Shown here: positions 1 through 10,177 of the stretch, piece after piece
Numbering within the stretch: the stretch's first letter is position 1
How the letters are laid out: each line of letters opens with the position of its first letter
From: Chthoniobacteraceae bacterium
Lineage (GTDB): Bacteria; Verrucomicrobiota; Verrucomicrobiia; Chthoniobacterales; Chthoniobacteraceae
Assembly (NCBI GenBank): GCA_028293625.1
Contig: JAQGOL010000011.1
Span: 62,001 to 126,000, forward strand
DNA length: 64,000 bases
Direction of reading: 5' to 3'
Notes under the pieces: generated by a model
Databases searched by the model: none
Seen by the model: only the letters and a program-made list of their open reading frames with translations
Told to the model about the DNA's origin: nothing
Made by a program: the position numbers and the translations under genes

Positions 1-316
1 AGCGCATGGTCCCAAGGAAAGGAGGGTTGGTGAAAATGTAATCTCTCGCTACCGTACGGCGAGGTCCCCATCCCCGCTCAATATCGAGTCCGTTCTGCTC
101 GTCGCGGATCTGTTGCGAATGACAGTAAAAACAACCTTCCGCAGCATAAACATCCCGGCCTTTGCGCGCATTGGCGATTGGGTATGCCTCTCCGGACTCC
201 GGGTCGACTTGCGGCTGCAGGTTTCCAATCTGGACCTGCGGCACTACTACCAGTGCCAGGCACGAAAGGGCGAATGTACCAAAGATTCCAGTAAAGAGAT
301 AGGACGAACGGCTCAT
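1..316 (-). CDS. cbb3-type oxidase subunit II-like cytochrome c (CcoO/FixO-like), partial
   Basis: The N-terminal 105 residues of a membrane-anchored monohaem cytochrome c; the gene continues past the left edge. It opens with MSRSSYLFTGIFGTFAL, one transmembrane segment, and then carries the haem c motif GCFYCHSQQIRDE, close to the CcoO signature CYxCHSQMIRPF. It ends inside the CcoO-like stretch FLGTMR. In the family, CcoO passes electrons from c-type haems to the CcoN catalytic subunit. The start ATG overlaps the stop of the upstream ccoN-like gene in the string TAATG, so the two are translationally coupled. The CcoN-like partner lacks most metal ligands while this cytochrome keeps its haem motif, so its electron acceptor is unclear. 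The methionine haem ligand lies outside the window. Confidence 0.85.
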   Translation of the reverse strand, partial: MSRSSYLFTGIFGTFALSCLALVVVPQVQIGNLQPQVDPESGEAYPIANARKGRDVYAAEGCFYCHSQQIRDEQNGLDIERGWGPRRTVARDYIFTNPPFLGTMR

Positions 317-1800
317 TAGTGTGTCTCCTGTCCGGGGTTCGCGAAGAGCGTGGGTTCTCCACCGGGTTGCCCGATGCGAAGGAGCATCAGAAGAAAGTGC
401 AGCGCGAAAAAGAGATGCGCAAAGAGGATGAATACATAGGCCAGACTGCTTCCGGCAAAGTAGACCTGCCCGATCTGAATGACCTGCGAGAATGTCGCAT
501 CCGGATCAATCATCGTCAGGCCTGCGGACAAGCCCGAGAATGCCATCATAGCGATAATGGTGGCACCGCCGTAAGCCGCGCCCAGGAAATGTATTTTGAT
601 CAGGGAAGCGGAAAGCCATTCACAACCAACCAGCCGCGGCGTGATATAATAAATGGCTCCGAACATCACCATCGAGAAAAAGGCGTAGATTACCAAATGC
701 TGCTGAGCGGCCTGGAATTGTGTGAAATGCACGATGCTATCAAAGCCACGCAACGAGGCCAGGACTCCCACAAAGCATGAGATCGCGAAAGCAATTACGC
801 CAAAGAAAGTAAACCGGATTGTTGGCGAATAGTAAACCATGTGCGTCTGACCATGCATCGTGAAGATGAAGTTGGTCAGGACGGTGACAATCGGTACGAT
901 CATCATGATGTTGGCAGCGATTCCGACCGTCACAAACCAGGCCGGGACCGGCCCCCCGCTCAACCGGGCCATCCCTGTAAGCCCGCCAAACAATGCAAAT
1001 GTCCAGAAACCAATGCTTGCAAGGTTATAGCTGTAAATAGGCCGATTGACGACTTTCGGGATGAGATAGTAGGCGGCGGCAAGACCGATGGGGGTCAGCC
1101 AAAGCAGACTCAGATTCTGCGAAAACCAGGCGGCGATCACACTTTGAACTACCCCTTGCACCTGTGGCATTGTGACAGCGATATGGGCAACACCAAAAAA
1201 CCACGGGAACCAGAAGAAGGCGCCAAGCAGATACCAGACTGAAATATAGACTGGAGCGTTGCGGCGGAACTTATAAAGAATTGCGCCCCAGAGGCCGATC
1301 AACAGATAGCCGATGAACATCAGGGCAGCCGCGCCGAACGGGATTTCCATTCCCGGGATGCCTGTATTTTTACCCGCGAGAACAGAACCTATTCCGAGCA
1401 CGAGCCCGAGATTCCAGAATACGGCGCCGAGAACCAGCACTCCCGGGTAGCGCAATGGGACCCGGCAGAGACGTGACATCAACCAGATGCTCACACCCAT
1501 TCCAACCAAACTGGCCCAACCGTAAGTTAATGCCAGATTATAGGCGGGAGCAACCCGGCCATAAGTAAGGAATGGCAGATCAGCCAGAAAACCCGGGCTA
1601 TGCAGCTTCATCGAAGTGATGAAACCAAGTAAGCTGGCCACCAGGAGCCACGCGATTGAAGTCGTGAAGAAAATCAGCACGGGCCCAGCCGCGGCGGAAT
1701 CGATCTGGGAACGTTCCACAGCGACCTTTGCATCGGTCGATGGTATGACCGGCACGGCGGCCGGCGTCAATTTGGATTCGGGAGCGGCGACTGCGGTCAT
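316..1800 (-). CDS. CcoN-like haem-copper oxidase subunit I homologue lacking most metal ligands
   Basis: A 494-residue polytopic membrane protein that aligns by eye along its length with cbb3 oxidase subunit I (CcoN). Shared landmarks include TYGRVAP, IPKVVNRPIYSYNL and GAIYYITPRLVG. The histidines that bind haem b, haem b3 and CuB are mostly gone: the helix II site is Tyr87, the first CuB site is Gln228 (FSQNLSLLWLT), the His-His pair is Ala278-Arg279, the cross-linked tyrosine is Gly272, and the haem b3 site is Gln366. Only His368, matching the second His of the helix X HxH, remains. It therefore should not reduce oxygen or bind a binuclear centre. It sits after actF and a small membrane protein, overlaps the preceding gene by 4 bases (ATGA), and precedes a ccoO-like gene. 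A structural or electron-transfer role beside alternative complex III is inference. Confidence 0.85.
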   Translation of the reverse strand: MTAVAAPESKLTPAAVPVIPSTDAKVAVERSQIDSAAAGPVLIFFTTSIAWLLVASLLGFITSMKLHSPGFLADLPFLTYGRVAPAYNLALTYGWASLVGMGVSIWLMSRLCRVPLRYPGVLVLGAVFWNLGLVLGIGSVLAGKNTGIPGMEIPFGAAALMFIGYLLIGLWGAILYKFRRNAPVYISVWYLLGAFFWFPWFFGVAHIAVTMPQVQGVVQSVIAAWFSQNLSLLWLTPIGLAAAYYLIPKVVNRPIYSYNLASIGFWTFALFGGLTGMARLSGGPVPAWFVTVGIAANIMMIVPIVTVLTNFIFTMHGQTHMVYYSPTIRFTFFGVIAFAISCFVGVLASLRGFDSIVHFTQFQAAQQHLVIYAFFSMVMFGAIYYITPRLVGCEWLSASLIKIHFLGAAYGGATIIAMMAFSGLSAGLTMIDPDATFSQVIQIGQVYFAGSSLAYVFILFAHLFFALHFLLMLLRIGQPGGEPTLFANPGQETH

Positions 1801-2351
1801 TGAGTGATCTCGGAGGTTGCGGTCCAGGGGAAGGAAACTTGAGGACCAGTGCTCAAGCTAGCAAAGAGAACCGGCATGGAAGCGGATGCGTTTGAAGCAG
1901 ACGGCGCCGCTGCAGGAGCCGGAGGCTGGAAATAGATGGTATCGGCACCCTGCGGTGCGGAAGGGAGTGCGCCCGGCGCAGGCTCTGCGGCATTCGGATC
2001 AAAGGGAGCGGGCATTGGAAGACGTGGCTCAACCTTCACAGCGGAGACACCGAGGGTCTTGTTCTTAAGTTCGCCAAGAACAAGGCGCTTGGCATCACTC
2101 AGCGGTATATGAACCACCCCTTTTGCTTTGTCGCCCCATTCCACGGCGGCAAGTTTCTCAGCGTCAGCCTTCTGAAGTGTCTCGCGTTGTGTAATGCGGT
2201 TCTCCGCGGCCTTATCGACTGCAAGCGAGCTGGGACCATTGCGGCGCATCCAGATCACCACTAGAAGGGCAAAAAGCAGGAAGAAAAAGAGCGCCCAAAG
2301 AAGGGTCAGGAATCCGCTCGGTTTCGGCAGTGAAGTATCTTCGGTCGGCAT
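1797..2351 (-). CDS. single-pass membrane protein of the ACIII/oxidase operon
   Basis: A 184-residue protein with one N-terminal transmembrane segment (residues about 12-36, FLTLLWALFFFLLFALLVVI) followed by a periplasmic domain and an Ala/Pro-rich C-terminal third. It has no cysteine and no haem motif. The segment AVEWGDKAKGVVHIPLSDAK resembles a short motif (W-x-D-x-x-x-G-V-V-x-I-P) that I associate with small proteins in cytochrome oxidase and ACIII clusters. The start ATG at 2351 is preferred over an upstream in-frame start because it lies 1 base after the actF stop. Its TGA overlaps the ATG of the ccoN-like gene. Function unknown; an assembly or linker role between ACIII and the oxidase-like pair is inferred only from position. 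Confidence 0.7.
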   Translation of the reverse strand: MPTEDTSLPKPSGFLTLLWALFFFLLFALLVVIWMRRNGPSSLAVDKAAENRITQRETLQKADAEKLAAVEWGDKAKGVVHIPLSDAKRLVLGELKNKTLGVSAVKVEPRLPMPAPFDPNAAEPAPGALPSAPQGADTIYFQPPAPAAAPSASNASASMPVLFASLSTGPQVSFPWTATSEITQ

Positions 2352-2352
2352 G

Positions 2353-3555
2353 TCAGTTCGTAAGTTTGAGCGACGCGGCCAGGCGGGGATCACGTGTTGG
2401 GAAAAGATAGCTCTTTCCAAGATTGCGGAAGAACAACCACCCCAGAATCCCGCCCATTCCAATCAGGGGAAAAATATCGAGCAGACTCGGAGAAAGGCCG
2501 GTTTCGTGAAGAGCCGGGAGCACGATCACATACATATCGAGCAACTGCATTCCGATAATCCAAAATGCGATCGCACAGAGGTATTGCGGGGCTTTTTTGG
2601 TCGCCTGCATCAACAACACCGGAAAAGGGAGAAAGAATCGGCCGACAACAAGCAGAGTGCTCAGATACCACCAACCGCCTGTGTTGCGAATCCGAAAGTA
2701 GATGGTCTCCTCCGGGATGTTCGCATACCAGATAAGCATGTATTGGCTGAACCCGATGTAAGCCCAGAAGATGGAGAAGGCGAGCATGTATTTACCCATC
2801 GTGTGGAAATGCTCTTCGTTCACAACGCTCAGGTAGCCACGGCGCTTGAGAGCCGAAACGATGATGACCAAAAGCGACATTGAACTGCCCGCCGCGCCGG
2901 CAAACAGGTAGACGCCCCACATCGTGGAGAACCAGTGAAAATCAAGCCCCATGAGCCAGTCAATGCCGGAGAACGTAATCCCGATTGCAACCGCCGGGAT
3001 ACCGCCAACACCGAGTTTGCGCATCATCAAGCTATGACTAACAGAGCCATCCTTGTCCTGGGCAATCGACCTTTTTTTCAGCGAAAGCGCGATCAGCGTA
3101 AGCAACGAGAAATAGAAAGCCGCACGAACATAAAAAAACGTGTGGTTAAGATAACCTTGTTTGGCATCGAGCAGCGGGTCAGCACCCGGAGCAAGGTCCC
3201 ACCATTTAAATAGATAACTTGTGCATGCCAGAATCGGCAAAAAGAAGAGCACAAAGTACGGAATCAGGCTCGCAACATTTTCGAGCTGCCGGCGGACAAG
3301 CACCGACCAATCCGAGTCGCTGGCGTGATGGAGGCATGTCCAAAAAAGGCAGCCGATGCAGATCGAGAAGAAAAAGAAAAAGGCAAACAGCCATGAAAAG
3401 GCAAACTGCTCGCGCCAGGAGGGCACGGCCAAGCCGATCAGACTAAGGAGGATGCCGGCAGCGCCCGCCAAAAGCAGGTTTTTAGGGAGCGATCCCGCGT
3501 GCTTGGGATCGAACTTCTCCGCCTCGGGCGGGGTGAGGTCATGTGGATGGCTCAT
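2353..3555 (-). CDS. actF: alternative complex III subunit ActF (membrane quinol-site subunit)
   Basis: A 400-residue polytopic membrane protein of about ten transmembrane helices, the length expected for ActF, which with ActC forms the NrfD-like membrane core of alternative complex III (ACIII). ACIII oxidises menaquinol and reduces a c-type cytochrome or a terminal oxidase in place of the bc1 complex. Landmarks include SGIDWLMGLDFHWFSTMWGV and FSQYMLIWYANIPEETIYF, both typical of ActF. The gene starts on the base after the actE stop and its own stop is followed within 1 base by the next ATG, so it is firmly within the operon. Confidence 0.92.
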   Translation of the reverse strand: MSHPHDLTPPEAEKFDPKHAGSLPKNLLLAGAAGILLSLIGLAVPSWREQFAFSWLFAFFFFFSICIGCLFWTCLHHASDSDWSVLVRRQLENVASLIPYFVLFFLPILACTSYLFKWWDLAPGADPLLDAKQGYLNHTFFYVRAAFYFSLLTLIALSLKKRSIAQDKDGSVSHSLMMRKLGVGGIPAVAIGITFSGIDWLMGLDFHWFSTMWGVYLFAGAAGSSMSLLVIIVSALKRRGYLSVVNEEHFHTMGKYMLAFSIFWAYIGFSQYMLIWYANIPEETIYFRIRNTGGWWYLSTLLVVGRFFLPFPVLLMQATKKAPQYLCAIAFWIIGMQLLDMYVIVLPALHETGLSPSLLDIFPLIGMGGILGWLFFRNLGKSYLFPTRDPRLAASLKLTN

Positions 3556-4242
3556 TTACTTCTTTTCCTGCTCCAATTCCTTTTGCTGCGTCTCGGTGAG
3601 GTCGGCTAATTTGCCATTCTGACTGCGCTGCAGAGCGCGGAGATAAGCGACAATCGCCCAACGATCTTCCACGGCAATCTGCGGCCCATAAGCGCCCATC
3701 GTGTTTTTGCCATTGGTAATGGTGCTGAAGATTTGCCCGTCAGGCATTACGCGAATGCGTTCGTCCTGAAGGTTGGCGACTGTCGCCCAGTTGCCAATTT
3801 TTTGCACGATCCCGTTGCCGTAGCCGGTCCGGCCATGGCAGATGGCGCAATTGATATTAAAGCGTTCCTCACCGCGGTCGATCAGTTGCGCGCTGACTTC
3901 AAGAGGAAAGCCGTCGCCGTAAGAATCGCCAAGTTTGCCGGTATTATAGTAGTCCGGCAGATTTGAGAATCCTTGTGGCTTGAGCGGCCCGTTTTTGGCG
4001 CCGACCTGCAGATAACGGCCAGCCAAAGTGTAGCCCAGAGGAATGGTGCCATCGACCGGTTTGCGTGCTGCACGGCCATCGGCAAAGAAGTTGCTTGAAT
4101 GTTGTGCCTGATACTTCGGCTGATGTTTCATATCAGGGAAGATCTCAATCGGGGGAAGACCACTATGCTGTCCGCGGAAGCCGGCGAGGGCGACCACAGC
4201 GCAGGTAATCAGAATAAAAGAAGCGAAAAAGTAGCGAAGCAT
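3556..4242 (-). CDS. actE: alternative complex III subunit ActE (monohaem cytochrome c)
   Basis: A 228-residue exported cytochrome c. An N-terminal hydrophobic segment (residues 4-21) anchors or exports it. The ActE-typical region around QPKYQAQ (about 41-47) and the DG-x-AAR-x-PVDGT stretch (55-67) precede the single haem motif CAICH (Cys132, Cys135, His136), followed by RTGYGNG. A methionine in NTMGAYG is a plausible distal ligand. In ACIII, ActE is a peripheral periplasmic haem subunit taking electrons from the ActA/ActB arm. It abuts actF with no spacer and follows actD by 14 bases. Confidence 0.92.
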   Translation of the reverse strand: MLRYFFASFILITCAVVALAGFRGQHSGLPPIEIFPDMKHQPKYQAQHSSNFFADGRAARKPVDGTIPLGYTLAGRYLQVGAKNGPLKPQGFSNLPDYYNTGKLGDSYGDGFPLEVSAQLIDRGEERFNINCAICHGRTGYGNGIVQKIGNWATVANLQDERIRVMPDGQIFSTITNGKNTMGAYGPQIAVEDRWAIVAYLRALQRSQNGKLADLTETQQKELEQEKK

Positions 4243-4256
4243 GGGTGCTAAAATTT

Positions 4257-4802
4257 CTAATCGTGAATAAGAGTCACGTGCTTGCCACCAATGGATTCAA
4301 GCAGTTCGCGCGTCTTGGTTTCGGAGAACTTCGGATCGCGGGCTTCAATCACCACAAAGAAGCCGTTGTCGGTAACGCGTTTGAAACGTTCCCAGTTGAA
4401 GACCGGGTGATACCACTTGGGCAACTGACTAAAAATCATCAGCGCAAACACAGTGGTGAATGAGGCAAAGAGGACCGTCAACTCGAACATGATCGGGAAG
4501 AACGCAGGTACGGTGCGCCAGTCATACGGTTTTCCGTGCACAATCAGCGGATAGATTCCCCAAGAAGGAATGAATGTAAGCAGAACCGCGGTAAGCGTGC
4601 CCGCAGCACCGCCGATGAGCACCGGGGCAGAGAGCCAGGACTTGCCAAGTCCCATCGCGGCATCCATGCCGTGGACAGGAAACGGGGAGTGCACGTCCCA
4701 GTTCTTGAAGCCGGCGTCGCGGAGTTTCTCAGCCGCGGCCATCAATGCTGCGGCGTCATTAAACTCGGCGCCGAGCCCATAAACTTTTTGGTATTGAGCC
4801 AT
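4257..4802 (-). CDS. actD: alternative complex III subunit ActD (DUF3341)
   Basis: A 181-residue protein of the DUF3341/ActD family with two central transmembrane helices: one at about residues 61-82 (VLIGGAAGTLTAVLLTFI) and one at about 102-125 (PIMFELTVLFASFTTVFALM). The N-terminal domain contains LRDAGFKNWDVHSPFPVHGM, whose HSPFPVHGM string is diagnostic of ActD. The C-terminal domain reads FFVVIEARDPKF, also typical. ActD is a small membrane subunit of ACIII without cofactors. Ten bases separate it from the actC stop. Confidence 0.93.
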   Translation of the reverse strand: MAQYQKVYGLGAEFNDAAALMAAAEKLRDAGFKNWDVHSPFPVHGMDAAMGLGKSWLSAPVLIGGAAGTLTAVLLTFIPSWGIYPLIVHGKPYDWRTVPAFFPIMFELTVLFASFTTVFALMIFSQLPKWYHPVFNWERFKRVTDNGFFVVIEARDPKFSETKTRELLESIGGKHVTLIHD

Positions 4803-4812
4803 GAGCGGTGAC

Positions 4813-6258
4813 CTAGTGATGCGCTTCGGTGCCGGTCTCTTCGCCGGGATTGTGGTGATGAGGATCTGCCGCGGGAGTCACAATCTTGACTTCCGACATG
4901 GCAATCATGGGAAGGAAACGCATGAACAGAAGAAAGAGCGAAAGGAAGATCCCAAAGGTGCCAACAAAGGTCCAGACCTCGATTTGCGATGGAGAATAGT
5001 GGCGCCAGGAGGACGGAAGGAAATCCTGGGCAAGCGAGGTAACGATAATGACAAACCGCTCAAACCACATTCCCGCGTTGACGAACATACAGACGATAAA
5101 TACCGCCACGTAGTTGGTTCGCATCGACTTGATCCAGAATAACTGGGGAGAAATGACGTTGCAGAACATCATGCAGTAGTAAGCCCAGGAATACCATCCG
5201 CTGTTCTTGTAACCGATACGGGCGCGGAAAAAGGTGAAAGCCTCAAACTGATTGCTGCTATACCAGGCAATGAAAAGCTCCATCAAGTAAGCGTACCCAA
5301 CGATCGTGCCAGTCAGCAGGATGATCTTGGCCATCTTGTCGACATGCTGCCGGGTGATCAGATCGTTGAGTTGCGGATAGAGTAACCGCGATGGAAGAAG
5401 AATGGTGAGCACCATCGCAAATCCGCCAAAGATAGCGCCTGCCACAAAGTAAGGCGGGAAGATGGTCGTGTGCCAACCGGGGACAATCGAAGTCGCAAAG
5501 TCAAACGACACGACCGAATGCACCGAAAGAACCAGCGGCGTGCTTAAACCAGCCAAAAGGAGGTAAGCCATCTCGTAGCTGCGCCAATGACGGTTTGAAC
5601 CGCGCCAACCGAGGGCAAAAACACCATAGATGTAGCGGGCCACGCGACTTTTGGCGCGATCGCGCAAAGTCGCCAGATCGGGCACCAATCCGGTATACCA
5701 AAATAGTACGGAAACGGTGAAGTAAGTGGAAACCGCGAACACGTCCCAAAGGAGTGGCGACCGGAAGTTGGGCCAGATCCCGTATTGGTTGGGAATAGGA
5801 GCAAGGAACCAAGCCATCCAGACGCGACCCACGTGGATGCCCGGGAAAATACCGGCGCAAACCACCGCGAAAAGCGTCATTGCTTCCGCGGCGCGGTTAA
5901 TCGAGGTCCGCCACTTCTGGCGGGTCAGGAAAAGAATTGCCGAGATCAAGGTTCCGGCGTGGCCGATACCGATCCAGAACACGAAGTTGGTAATATCCCA
6001 CGCCCAACCAACGGTCTTGTTTTCTCCCCAAACGCCTACGCCGTTGGAGATTTGATAACCAATGCAGAAGAGACCGATGAGAGCGATTGGCGAGGTGATG
6101 GCAAATGCCAGCCACCACCACATCGGTGTGGGCTCTTCAACGATTTGAGAAACCTTGTCCGTGATCCATGTCAACGGCCGATTGTTGGAGACCAACGGCA
6201 CCCGAGCCATCTCGGGCGGTGTCGTCAACGTGACTGTCGGGGAAGTCGAGTTAGCCAT
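4813..6258 (-). CDS. actC: alternative complex III subunit ActC (NrfD/PsrC-like)
   Basis: A 481-residue NrfD-family membrane protein with about ten transmembrane helices. It holds the presumed quinol-binding site of ACIII beneath the iron-sulphur subunit ActB. Landmarks are [19 protein letters not shown] (the conserved HAGT) and [19 protein letters not shown], both characteristic of ActC/NrfD proteins. The C-terminus is His/Glu-rich ([17 protein letters not shown]) and does not look like part of the membrane core. It starts 5 bases after the actB stop. Confidence 0.94.
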
Positions 6259-6263
6259 TACTT

Positions 6264-9200
6264 TTAAGCTTCGGTGTGTTCAGCTGTAACTTGATGTCCG
6301 CCGTGTTCGGCACCGCCATGTTCATGGCCGCCACCGTGGCCGGAGCCCCGGGAGTAGGCGCCGATTTTTTCAGCGCCAGGCATCTTCATGTTAGGATTGC
6401 GTATCCGGGCCAAGTACCAGACACGGGTGCTTACGTTTAGATATTCGAGGAGACGATAGCCGCGCTCGCCGGCGCGCACCTTGGAGACGCTGCTCTCGGG
6501 ATTTGAAATATCGCCAAAAGTAATCGCGTCGTTTGGACAAGCCTGCGCGCAAGCCACAGTAAACGCATCGGCAGGCACGCGAATCTGATCCGTGTCGCGG
6601 GCGCTCACCTTGGCGGCAATCTTGGCTTCCTGAATACGCTGCACGCAGAAGGTGCATTTCTCCATGACGCCGCGCATGCGGACAGTCACGTTCGGATTCT
6701 TCTGCATCTTGATCGTCTCCTCCGTTCCTTTCGGAGCGGTCAGATTCCATGCATAAAGACCCTTGTCCTCAATCTTGCGCTGATTGTAGTCGAAGAAGTT
6801 AAAACGGCGGACCTTAAACGGGCAGTTATTGGCGCAGTAACGTGTTCCAATGCAGCGATTATAAGCCATCACGTTCAAGCCGTCGTCACTATGGACAGTG
6901 GCGTTGACCGGGCAGACCGTTTCACATGGCGCATTCTCGCAATGCTGACAAAGCATTGGCTCATACACCATCTCCGGGTCGTTGGTCTCGTCATCGAAGC
7001 TGGCGAAATAACGATCGGTGCGAATCCAGTGCATTTCGCGTCCGTTCTGAACCTGTGCCTTGCCAACAATCGGAATGTTATTCTCCGACTGGCAGGCAAT
7101 CATGCAGGCCGAACAACCGGTGCAGGTGCTAAGATCGACAGTCATTCCCCACTGATGAATGTTCGTCAGTGGCGGATGGGAGTAGAGTGACTCATTAACG
7201 ACTTCAACCTTTTTGCCGTTCTCCATTTTCCACTTCGCGTGGGCATCCATGCCCATCGTCTTGGCGAAGTCGGGCTTCTTCTTGTAATCTTCAAGAGTGC
7301 CTTCACGCACAAACTCGGCTCCTCGGCCTTCCAAAGTATTATGCTCCTGGGTAACCGCGAAAGCATACTTATCATTCGTCTTCTGAACTTCGGCGCCAAC
7401 CAGGAAATAAGGCTGCGAGGTGGTTACCAAGGGATAGACGTTAAATCCGGCACTCTTGCCGGTTTCATCCTTGCCACCAACACGGCCCGGAAAGTCGCGG
7501 CCGTAACCGAGTGAAATCGACAGGGAAGCGTCGGCATGCCCAGGCGCGACAAAGAGCGGCACCCGAATGGAACGACCTTGAGAGCGAATCTCGATGATAT
7601 CACCGGTGCCAACAGACCATTTCCTCGCGCTCGCCGGGCTGATTAAAGCAGCGTTATCCCAGGAGAGCTTGGTAATCGGATCGGGAAGTTCCTGAAGCCA
7701 GCCATTATTGGCATAACGTCCGTCATCCAATTTGGAATCCGGGACGAAAACGATTTCGAAAGTCTCCGAATTAAACGCAGGCGTTGTAAAATTTTCCTGC
7801 GCATAAGCCGTAGCCGATGCGGCAACAGCAAGCTGCTCAGGTTTGGCGGCTGTATTGGCAAGGAAACCGTCATGAAGGAACGTCGCCCATGCGACGGTGA
7901 AATCAGCCGGCTTGGCAATCTGGCGGAAGGTTTCCTGAATGAGTTCAGGACCCGCAGGCTTGGAAAGACCAGCGAACTTCGCCAACACATCGAGCTCCGA
8001 CCATGCGCCAAAGAGCGGCAGGATCATTGGCTGCCCCGAAAGATAACTGCCATCGGTGGCATAACCATCACCCCACGATTCAAGATAATGGGCCAGCGGC
8101 GCATGCCATGTCGAAAGCTGCGCGGTTTCATCCTCGTGCTGAGATACCCGGATGACGACGCCCTTTTTGTTATCGCGGAAATCCTTCTGAAGATTACCCC
8201 AGTCCAGATCGGAAGGAGCATTGTAAACAGGATTGCCGCCGATAATCACCAGTGTTTTGGCGATTCCATCATCAATGGCTTTTTTAACAGCGGAAATTGT
8301 GGCTGCGGGCTTCGCTCCAGCGCGGCCAACCAGCGTCTTCCCAAAATTTCCAAGCGCGCTGTTAATGGCGGCAACCATCGCATGAACGGCACCCGGCTGA
8401 CGGGATCCGGCCAGCACAAGGCTTCTGCCTTTATGCTCAATCAGATCAACCGCGGACTCCTTGACCCACGCGGGGTCAAATGTGGCCGTGCCGGTTGGCA
8501 GATCTTTGACCAAAGTCGAAAGGACGGGGTCCTTGGTCCGCGCGGCAATTTCAGTGGCAAGAGCGAGAGTGAACGCGCCGATTAGACTTGCAGGAACACG
8601 CAGGCGATGTTCAGCCATGCCGCCGGTCAAAGTAAACCGGTTCTCCACAGCATATAGACGGTTCATTCCGCCTTCAGCTTCCGGCTTGCGGCGGGAAGTA
8701 AACTGGCGGGTTTGTTCAACCGTCGATTCGCTGCCGAGGAAGTCGCAATCAAGCGACATGATCACATCGGCTTTATCAAGCAGTGGCACCGCCTGCAGTC
8801 CATTGGCATAGATGCCGGCATCAGTGCCACCCAGCGGCTCATACTGCGCCCAGATCGCCTTGGGAAATTTTGCTTCAATCGCTGCCCGCAACCGATCACG
8901 CGTCGGCGCAGAGTTCTGCTCAAGTAGAAATACAAGACCCGTGCCGTCGCCGGCCCCGTTGATTACTTCATCGAGCCCTTTTTCGAATCCGGCGGAATCG
9001 GAAGCTCCATTTTGATTCCGGAAAGTACGGGAACGATCCGGATCATAGAGATCGAGAATGGACGCCTGCGCATAGGTATCGGTGGCCCCCTTGCTGGCGG
9101 CATGCAACGGGTTGCCTTCAATCTTGGTAGGACGCCCGTCATGCGTCGTGATCACCAATGGAAGAGCCCCGCCGCGGGACGGCATCGAACTGGTGAAAAA

Positions 9201-9491
9201 GAGCGCCTTGCCCGGAATGGACCATTCCGTGCCGCGTGTAAATGGAACGAGATGCTTTTCCGGACGACGGCAGCCGGCAAAGCTCAGTCCGGCAAGGGCC
9301 ATGGAGGCGCCCATCAGTTGGAGAAAGTTGCGGCGGGAAACTTCGCCTCCTTCAAACTCGGATGCGCCACGGGGAAACTCATGCTCCAGCCAGCCCCGGA
9401 ACTCGGGCGTATCGGCCACCTGGCCTAGGCTGCGCCAATATTTCTTACCCGTTGAATCTTCAGGCGGGTGTTGTAAAACGCGTTTGCTCAT
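6264..9491 (-). CDS. actB: alternative complex III subunit ActB (molybdopterin-like plus iron-sulphur)
   Basis: A 1075-residue periplasmic subunit exported by the Tat system: the twin-arginine motif [12 protein letters not shown] lies near residues 52-63, after a cytosolic-type leader with [13 protein letters not shown]. The large N-terminal part resembles molybdopterin oxidoreductases, though ActB proteins carry no molybdenum cofactor. The C-terminal part (about residues 785-975) is an NrfC-like ferredoxin domain with [31 protein letters not shown] and CTFCVQR plus ACAQACPND, fitting several [4Fe-4S] and a [3Fe-4S] cluster. The ATG at 9491 is preferred; a longer TTG start at 9515 would overlap actA. 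The C-terminal tail is His/Gly-rich. Confidence 0.94.
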
Positions 9492-9502
9492 CGAGAAATT
9501 CG

Positions 9503-10177
9503 TTAGCGGTGGCAACCAGCGCAGTTGCTATCGGGCGGGTTAATATTTCCCTTTGTCTTAAGGGCGAGCCCTATTTCCTGCTGGGCATCGGCCACGGACT
9601 GGCCTGACTTCGGAGTCGGCTTCCAATCCAGGTTGGTGATCTCAGAAAGCGGACGGAGCGCATCTTCGGGATGACGATGGCACTCCAGACACCAATCCAT
9701 TGAGAGCGGCTTGGCATGATAAACCACCGGCATCTCGTTGATCTGGCCATGGCAGCTTACACAGGAGACACCCCGGTTCACATGCGCCGAATGATTAAAA
9801 TAAGCGTAGTCAGGCGTCTTATGGATCTGCACCCATTCGATCGGCTTGCCCGTCTGCCAGGAATCACGCACCGCCTGAAGCTTGGGGCTATCCTTTTGAA
9901 CCTGCCCGTGACAGTTCATGCAGACCTGGGTGGTCGGGATATTGGAGTGGGCCGCCACTTCCACCGCGCTATGACAATAGCGGCAGTCCATTCCGACCTG
10001 CTTGACATGAATGTCATGAGGGAAGGGAACCGGCTGGGTCGGCTGGTAGCCAACATTTGTATACTTGTTGGTAAAGTAATACGCGAACCCAGCTGTCGTT
10101 GCGGTGCCGATAACGGCCAAACAGAGGATGATTTTGAGCGGCAGGATGTTACTCCCGCGCGGAAAGATATTCGCCAT
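9503..10177 (-). CDS. actA: alternative complex III subunit ActA (pentahaem cytochrome c)
   Basis: A 224-residue cytochrome with one N-terminal transmembrane anchor (about residues 13-33) and five CxxCH motifs: CRYCH, CMNCH, CVSCH, CLECH and CAGCH, the last at the very C-terminus. Five haems match ActA, the multihaem periplasmic subunit of ACIII that accepts electrons from ActB. It is the first gene of the operon; the next ATG (actB) lies 11 bases after its stop. The upstream 192-base gap holds the candidate Crp-type operator listed separately. Confidence 0.94.
   Translation of the reverse strand: MANIFPRGSNILPLKIILCLAVIGTATTAGFAYYFTNKYTNVGYQPTQPVPFPHDIHVKQVGMDCRYCHSAVEVAAHSNIPTTQVCMNCHGQVQKDSPKLQAVRDSWQTGKPIEWVQIHKTPDYAYFNHSAHVNRGVSCVSCHGQINEMPVVYHAKPLSMDWCLECHRHPEDALRPLSEITNLDWKPTPKSGQSVADAQQEIGLALKTKGNINPPDSNCAGCHR

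Follow-up and report, generated by a model that had tools for sequence, protein, structure and literature searches.

The window, a stretch of 64,000 nucleotides from a Chthoniobacteraceae bacterium (contig JAQGOL010000011.1, positions 62,001 to 126,000), contains the actABCDEF set of an alternative complex III (ACIII) operon, together with ORF190, a gene for a homolog of the cbb3 oxidase subunit CcoN (referred to here as N) and the 5' part of a CcoO-like gene (Table 1). The reading frame of N overlaps the upstream ORF at ATGA (1797-1800) and the CcoO-like gene at TAATG (314-318), which bears out, at the level of the sequence, an earlier claim that the gene is coupled to both of its neighbors. 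ORF190 probably consists of one N-terminal transmembrane helix and a Pro/Ala-rich domain, and homologs of it lie between actF and N in several other loci (L034-L037, L116, L072, L082, L090, and L100). The slot between actF and N, which is filled in the window by this haem-less ORF (1797-2369), is occupied in other families by a monohaem cytochrome c (L102, L105, L106, L109, L132, L140, L143).

Table 1. Genes of the ACIII operon in the window and the basis for their assignment.
Feature	Position	Strand	Basis
actA, multihaem cytochrome c subunit of ACIII	9503..10177	-	Pfam Cytochrome_C7, NCBIfam QrcA-like
actB, molybdopterin-like and FeS subunit of ACIII	6264..9515	-	NCBIfam MoCo_extend_TAT, QrcB/QrcC-like
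actC, NrfD-like quinol-site subunit	4813..6258	-	Pfam NrfD 1.2e-19
actD	4257..4802	-	Pfam ActD 1e-56
actE, monohaem cytochrome c	3556..4242	-	Pfam Cytochrome_CBB3; one CXXCH
actF, membrane subunit	2353..3555	-	Operon position and homologs in full operons
ORF190, no family	1797..2369	-	No Pfam or NCBIfam match; recurs in relatives
N, ligand-less ("dead") CcoN homolog	316..1800	-	Alignment, Pfam, fold comparison
CcoO-like monohaem c gene, 5' part	2..316	-	Pfam FixO; CXXCH and axial-type Met

The CcoO-like gene continues beyond the window start on the same contig, where its full length (L054:9654-10316, reverse strand) encodes 220 residues. It is followed on L054 by a dihaem CcoP-like protein of 473 residues with a probable N-terminal membrane helix, a monohaem cytochrome c of 158 residues and then an aa3 oxidase set comprising CoxA (624 residues), COX3, COX4_pro, and CoxB with a CuA-type motif, which putative CtaA, CtaB, and Sco genes, named by reading their sequences, would complete. 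The ccoO and ccoP neighbors of N carry c-haem motifs (FixO and ccoP/Cytochrome_CBB3 matches, CXXCH), and the placement of N in an ACIII operon with a haem-bearing CcoO-like gene, as previously proposed, agrees with the actABCDEF matches.

The gene for N is open from its ATG start and encodes 494 residues, of which residues 41-443 were matched by Pfam COX1 (1.4e-45) in a profile search, in keeping with its earlier description as full-length and unbroken. A match to NCBIfam CcoN (4.8e-30) falls far under the equivalog cut-off, and the best matches among solved structures are CcoN chains (9g6b, 3mk7, and 8smr). Pairwise alignment with Pseudomonas stutzeri CcoN (3mk7) places Tyr87 at H60, Gln228 at H207, Gly272 at Y251, Ala278 at H257, Arg279 at H258, Gln366 at H345, and His368 at H347, and a 111-sequence MAFFT alignment gave identical ligand columns. 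These are exactly the substitutions that the sequence-only reading had listed by eye, and the check for intact histidines at the six ligand columns returned only one, so that His368 is the sole survivor among the six ligand histidines and the cross-linked tyrosine. The three CuB histidines and the haem b3 histidine (H207, H257, H258, and H345) are all absent, as is the helix VII cross-linked tyrosine (Y251), and the low-spin haem b pair (H60 and H347) is incomplete. As the surviving column, H347, supplies in 3MK7 one of the pair of histidines that bind low-spin haem b, neither a haem site nor the CuB site is complete.

An AlphaFold model based on the window protein plus 17 relatives (pLDDT 86.5, pTM 0.89) superposes on 3mk7_D with a Z score of 47.5 and an rmsd of 1.8 Å over 442 residues, and its closest folds are CcoN (Z 46-48), followed by NorB (42.7) and the A-type oxidases (~36). 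The haem-copper oxidase subunit I fold with its 12 transmembrane helices is, according to this model, retained. A NorB-like nitric oxide reductase identity was considered and rejected, as the same histidine columns (haem b, haem b3, FeB) are lost and the CcoN folds are closer than NorB. The window protein is a full-length CcoN homolog that does not qualify as a haem-copper oxidase, its cofactor sites having been lost while the fold was kept, and we regard the loss of oxidase function as near-certain. That the result is an artifact, with intact ligands misaligned or the gene damaged by sequencing error, is refuted by the agreement of two independent aligners and by relatives at 60-66% identity that have the same losses, whereas live relatives at only 40% identity present all seven residues in the same alignment columns; we found nothing in favor of this explanation and give it practically no credence.

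A survey of ACIII clusters in Verrucomicrobiota, as the sequence-only reading had suggested, identified N in the ACIII operon in 93 of 388 genomes, and the order actABCDEF-N-O-P was constant in essentially every full locus. The 107 operon loci fall into two classes: 32 keep all seven key residues (live N) and 75 keep three or fewer (dead N), with none keeping four to six. Among the dead loci, 21 keep no residue, 45 keep one, seven keep two, and two keep three, and the replacement patterns, read in the column order given above, vary by clade (YQGARQH in the window, HNSQRYH, AYGVQQQ, HSAQKFI, AHSSRRW, QQGRHQQ, FEAADVQ, and SESSHFV). The low-spin pair is retained in the HNSQRYH form (two loci). 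One of the former CuB His positions is taken by Arg, Lys, or His in 57 of the 75 dead proteins, where the basic side chain perhaps replaces the charge of the lost metal, and Ser240, which belonged to the old proton channel, has mostly become Ala. Outside Verrucomicrobiota no ligand loss was found among the Acidobacteriota relatives, 12 of 12 being intact, and L049, L050, and L052 also keep all seven residues. Live N too is without the C-type Glu at stutzeri position 323, having Gln, Ile, Ala, Leu, or Thr instead (e.g., L043, L049, L050, L158-L169), and the live loci therefore represent a distinct C-type subgroup.

To address how often the change occurred, a tree of N was built with the ligand columns removed. 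It requires four changes between the live and dead states, and the hypothesis that all dead N form one clade is rejected (AU p 7.5e-4). The tree of ActB, ActC, and ActF, which is unaffected by the fast evolution of N, requires 11 changes and likewise rejects one common dead clade (AU p 5e-32). Neither tree allows the dead form to have arisen only once, and the true number of changes lies between 4 and 11, because long branches may falsely join dead N proteins in the former tree and parts of the operon may have been exchanged. Such counts carry no direction; we read the changes as losses because every tested relative outside ACIII operons is intact and the regain of six histidines is implausible. 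The observation of the first reading is thus confirmed and holds more widely than it stated: in Verrucomicrobiota an oxidase subunit has repeatedly been turned into a non-catalytic component of a module associated with ACIII. The live relatives in the same operon slot, the recurrence of the loss and the aa3 operon directly outside the window all lay beyond the view of the first reading.

One explanation for the dead form is that N is a decaying relic without function, kept only through the translational coupling of ccoO and ccoP. The overlapping gene junctions around N are consistent with this, and dead N has indeed evolved faster than live N relative to the Act proteins (tip-length ratio 1.77 vs. 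0.80, p 1e-5). By NG86, for which dS is saturated in some pairs, dN/dS of dead N ranges from 0.04 to 0.25 (median ~0.14, 22 pairs), about three times the median of live pairs (~0.05). However, dN/dS of dead N never exceeds 0.26 and is approximately in the range of ActB, ActE, and CcoO in the same pairs; each of the 75 dead N genes from ACIII operons has a single frame covering 94% or more of the core columns; 60 columns are conserved in both the live and dead sets; and the dead clades span whole families. Dead N is more relaxed than live N, yet it is far from neutral and is under purifying selection, and we consider the relic explanation quite unlikely.

The haem c partners are conserved alongside N: the CXXCH motif of CcoO is present in all 31 live and 75 dead operons compared. 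Its probable axial Met, which is invariant in live operons and present in the window, has given way, mostly to Cys but also to Lys, Arg, His, or Ala, in 24 of the 75 dead operons. The Cys replacement occurs in one dead clade (L097, L102, L105, L106, L109, L132, L140, L142-L145, L151, L153-L155), whose CcoO may have an unusual haem ligation. The earlier suggestion of selection for a non-catalytic role thus finds support in the full-length reading frames, the dN/dS values, and the conservation of the operon and c-haem motif.

What that role might be is informed by the residues that persist. The 107 columns conserved in live N only include all the ligands, Arg57, and Trp203, while the polar residues conserved in the dead set include Lys249, Tyr244, Tyr258, Asn130, Arg110, and His404. 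The retention of the helix bundle and of several such residues (e.g., Lys249 and Tyr244), as well as the basic residue at the former CuB position, could be read as signs of a new active function, in which a quinone-binding or ion-conducting N links electron flow through ACIII to the movement of charge. Against this, the column comparison revealed no new polar or metal-binding residue that the dead clades have in common but live N lacks, the conserved polar residues also occur in live oxidases and can be structural, and the proton-channel serine is mostly gone. We judge an active function of this kind to be unlikely. Of the roles named in the sequence-only reading, the best fit is a structural adaptor or a partner for electron exit from ACIII, and positive evidence for a quinone-site role did not emerge.

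The occurrence of aa3 oxidase offers a possible context for the loss. A CtaD/CoxA aa3 subunit was found in all 65 dead-N genomes surveyed and in 24 of 28 live-N genomes, the four genomes without aa3 all having live N; the difference has an uncorrected p of 0.007 and rests on only two genera without aa3. In two small genomes without aa3 (1.3-1.7 Mb; G001, L123, and G146, L011), the live ACIII-linked N is the only CcoN/CtaD-type oxidase subunit found. This pattern fits the idea, and is suggestive of it, that N dies only where another oxidase does the work. Adjacency of aa3 genes, which in raw counts is seen in 30 of 75 dead and 1 of 32 live operons (Fisher p 5e-5), was rejected as a tracker of ligand loss, as the association disappears when independent pairs are compared on the Act tree. 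N could also be a regulatory or inhibitory partner of live CcoNO or aa3 subunits encoded elsewhere in the genome, rather than of ACIII, and a separate live CcoNO fusion is present in the source genome (L055). However, the methanotroph-family genomes examined, with two to four pmoA-type genes each, have ligand-less N and no other CcoN, and the genes tightly linked to N are act, O, and P, not those of other oxidases, making such a partnership very improbable.

The reading that we favor, and consider reasonably probable, is that dead N is a cofactor-less scaffold holding the haems of CcoO and CcoP, which would form a bridge for electrons between ACIII and aa3. Its ancestor would have been the CcoN of a C-type haem-copper oxidase encoded together with ACIII, from which haem b, haem b3, and CuB were then lost to leave a cofactor-less 12-helix scaffold. 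The scaffold would anchor the haem c subunits CcoO and CcoP beside ACIII, on the ActE/ActF side, and the NOP module would still dock on ACIII with only its haem c parts in use; that N, O, and P are physically joined to ACIII is suggested by the gene arrangement. Since N without haem b and the binuclear center blocks passage, electrons must leave CcoO/CcoP to another acceptor, and the CuA of the aa3 next door is presumably the obvious one. Electrons from menaquinol would then pass through ActB, ActA, ActE, and CcoO/CcoP to the CuA of the aa3 oxidase whose genes come next in the operon. We count as support for this path that in the source genome N-O is directly followed by two more haem c proteins and the aa3 genes. 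A bridge is unnecessary in principle, as ACIII of Flavobacterium johnsoniae and Rhodothermus marinus transfers electrons to aa3 or caa3 without any NOP module (PMC8552683, PMC5928083). In the 24 dead operons with a replaced axial Met, although not in the window, the CcoO haem may have changed its role.

Taken to its full extent, this would mean that a terminal oxidase fused at the operon level to ACIII was converted at least four, perhaps about 11, independent times, the verrucomicrobial methanotrophs included, into a scaffold that lacks haem b and copper and carries a bridge of c haems. Such a scaffold would link complexes III and IV in a new way. We place this proposition barely on the favorable side of even. 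A catalytic respiratory subunit would have been repeatedly demoted to a structural part across a class of common soil and water bacteria, in what amounts to a natural experiment on how ACIII and oxidases are held together, and the presence of ccoN, ccoO, and ccoP does not imply a high-affinity oxidase. We found no description of a ligand-less CcoN in the open-access literature that was searched, and no expression data for the methanotroph genes. At least one haem-copper oxidase classifier filtered out any sequence lacking the six histidines (PMC3084760), so that such proteins are invisible to it, and this filter may explain why ligand-less N was missed.

Compared with known systems, window N resembles P. 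stutzeri CcoN (3MK7) in its predicted 12-helix fold over the full length, its partners ccoO and ccoP, and ~21% identity by structure, but it differs in missing five of the six histidines and the tyrosine, in having no complete haem or CuB site, and in its location in an ACIII operon. Its nearest non-verrucomicrobial relatives, from a stand-alone N-O-P operon of Alcaligenaceae (L052) and from Acidobacteriota (L158-L169), differ in that 13 of 13 keep all seven residues, and no act genes were seen beside L052 or L158. The F. johnsoniae and R. marinus supercomplexes are alike in that ACIII is encoded with, and feeds, an A-type oxidase, but they have no NOP module, and the two complexes are joined through a cytochrome c domain of ActA or subunit IIc (PMC8552683, PMC5928083). 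Closest in arrangement are the verrucomicrobial methanotrophs and Opitutaceae, in which ACIII and cbb3 genes are adjacent and the product has been treated as an oxidase (PMC8498564, PMC6688271), the high O2 affinity of Methylacidiphilum having been tied to such a gene set in a genome paper (PMC6688271). In Verruconatronum, three genes right after ActABCDEF (003969-003971) are listed as caa3 (2) (PMC13274419, Table 3), and by their position these may be an N-O-P set. In one genome of the methanotroph family (G072, L072:9577-16450), nosZ, nosD, and neighboring genes of a nitrous oxide reductase cluster lie between actF and a dead N so strongly diverged that neither Pfam nor NCBIfam recognizes it; nos genes between actF and N have been published for Methylacidiphilum caldifontis IT6 (PMC11102522). 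The methanotroph and Opitutaceae genes share with the window the slot directly after ACIII and the N-O-P set, but they were published as a working high-affinity oxidase, whereas the methanotroph-family N analyzed here is ligand-less (SESSHFV) and the only CcoN homolog in its genomes. The published methanotroph "cbb3" is thus probably the ligand-less dead form, the species names and the gene equation being our own deduction, and if conversion has been repeated as proposed, the "cbb3 oxidase" of verrucomicrobial methanotrophs would not exist as an oxidase.
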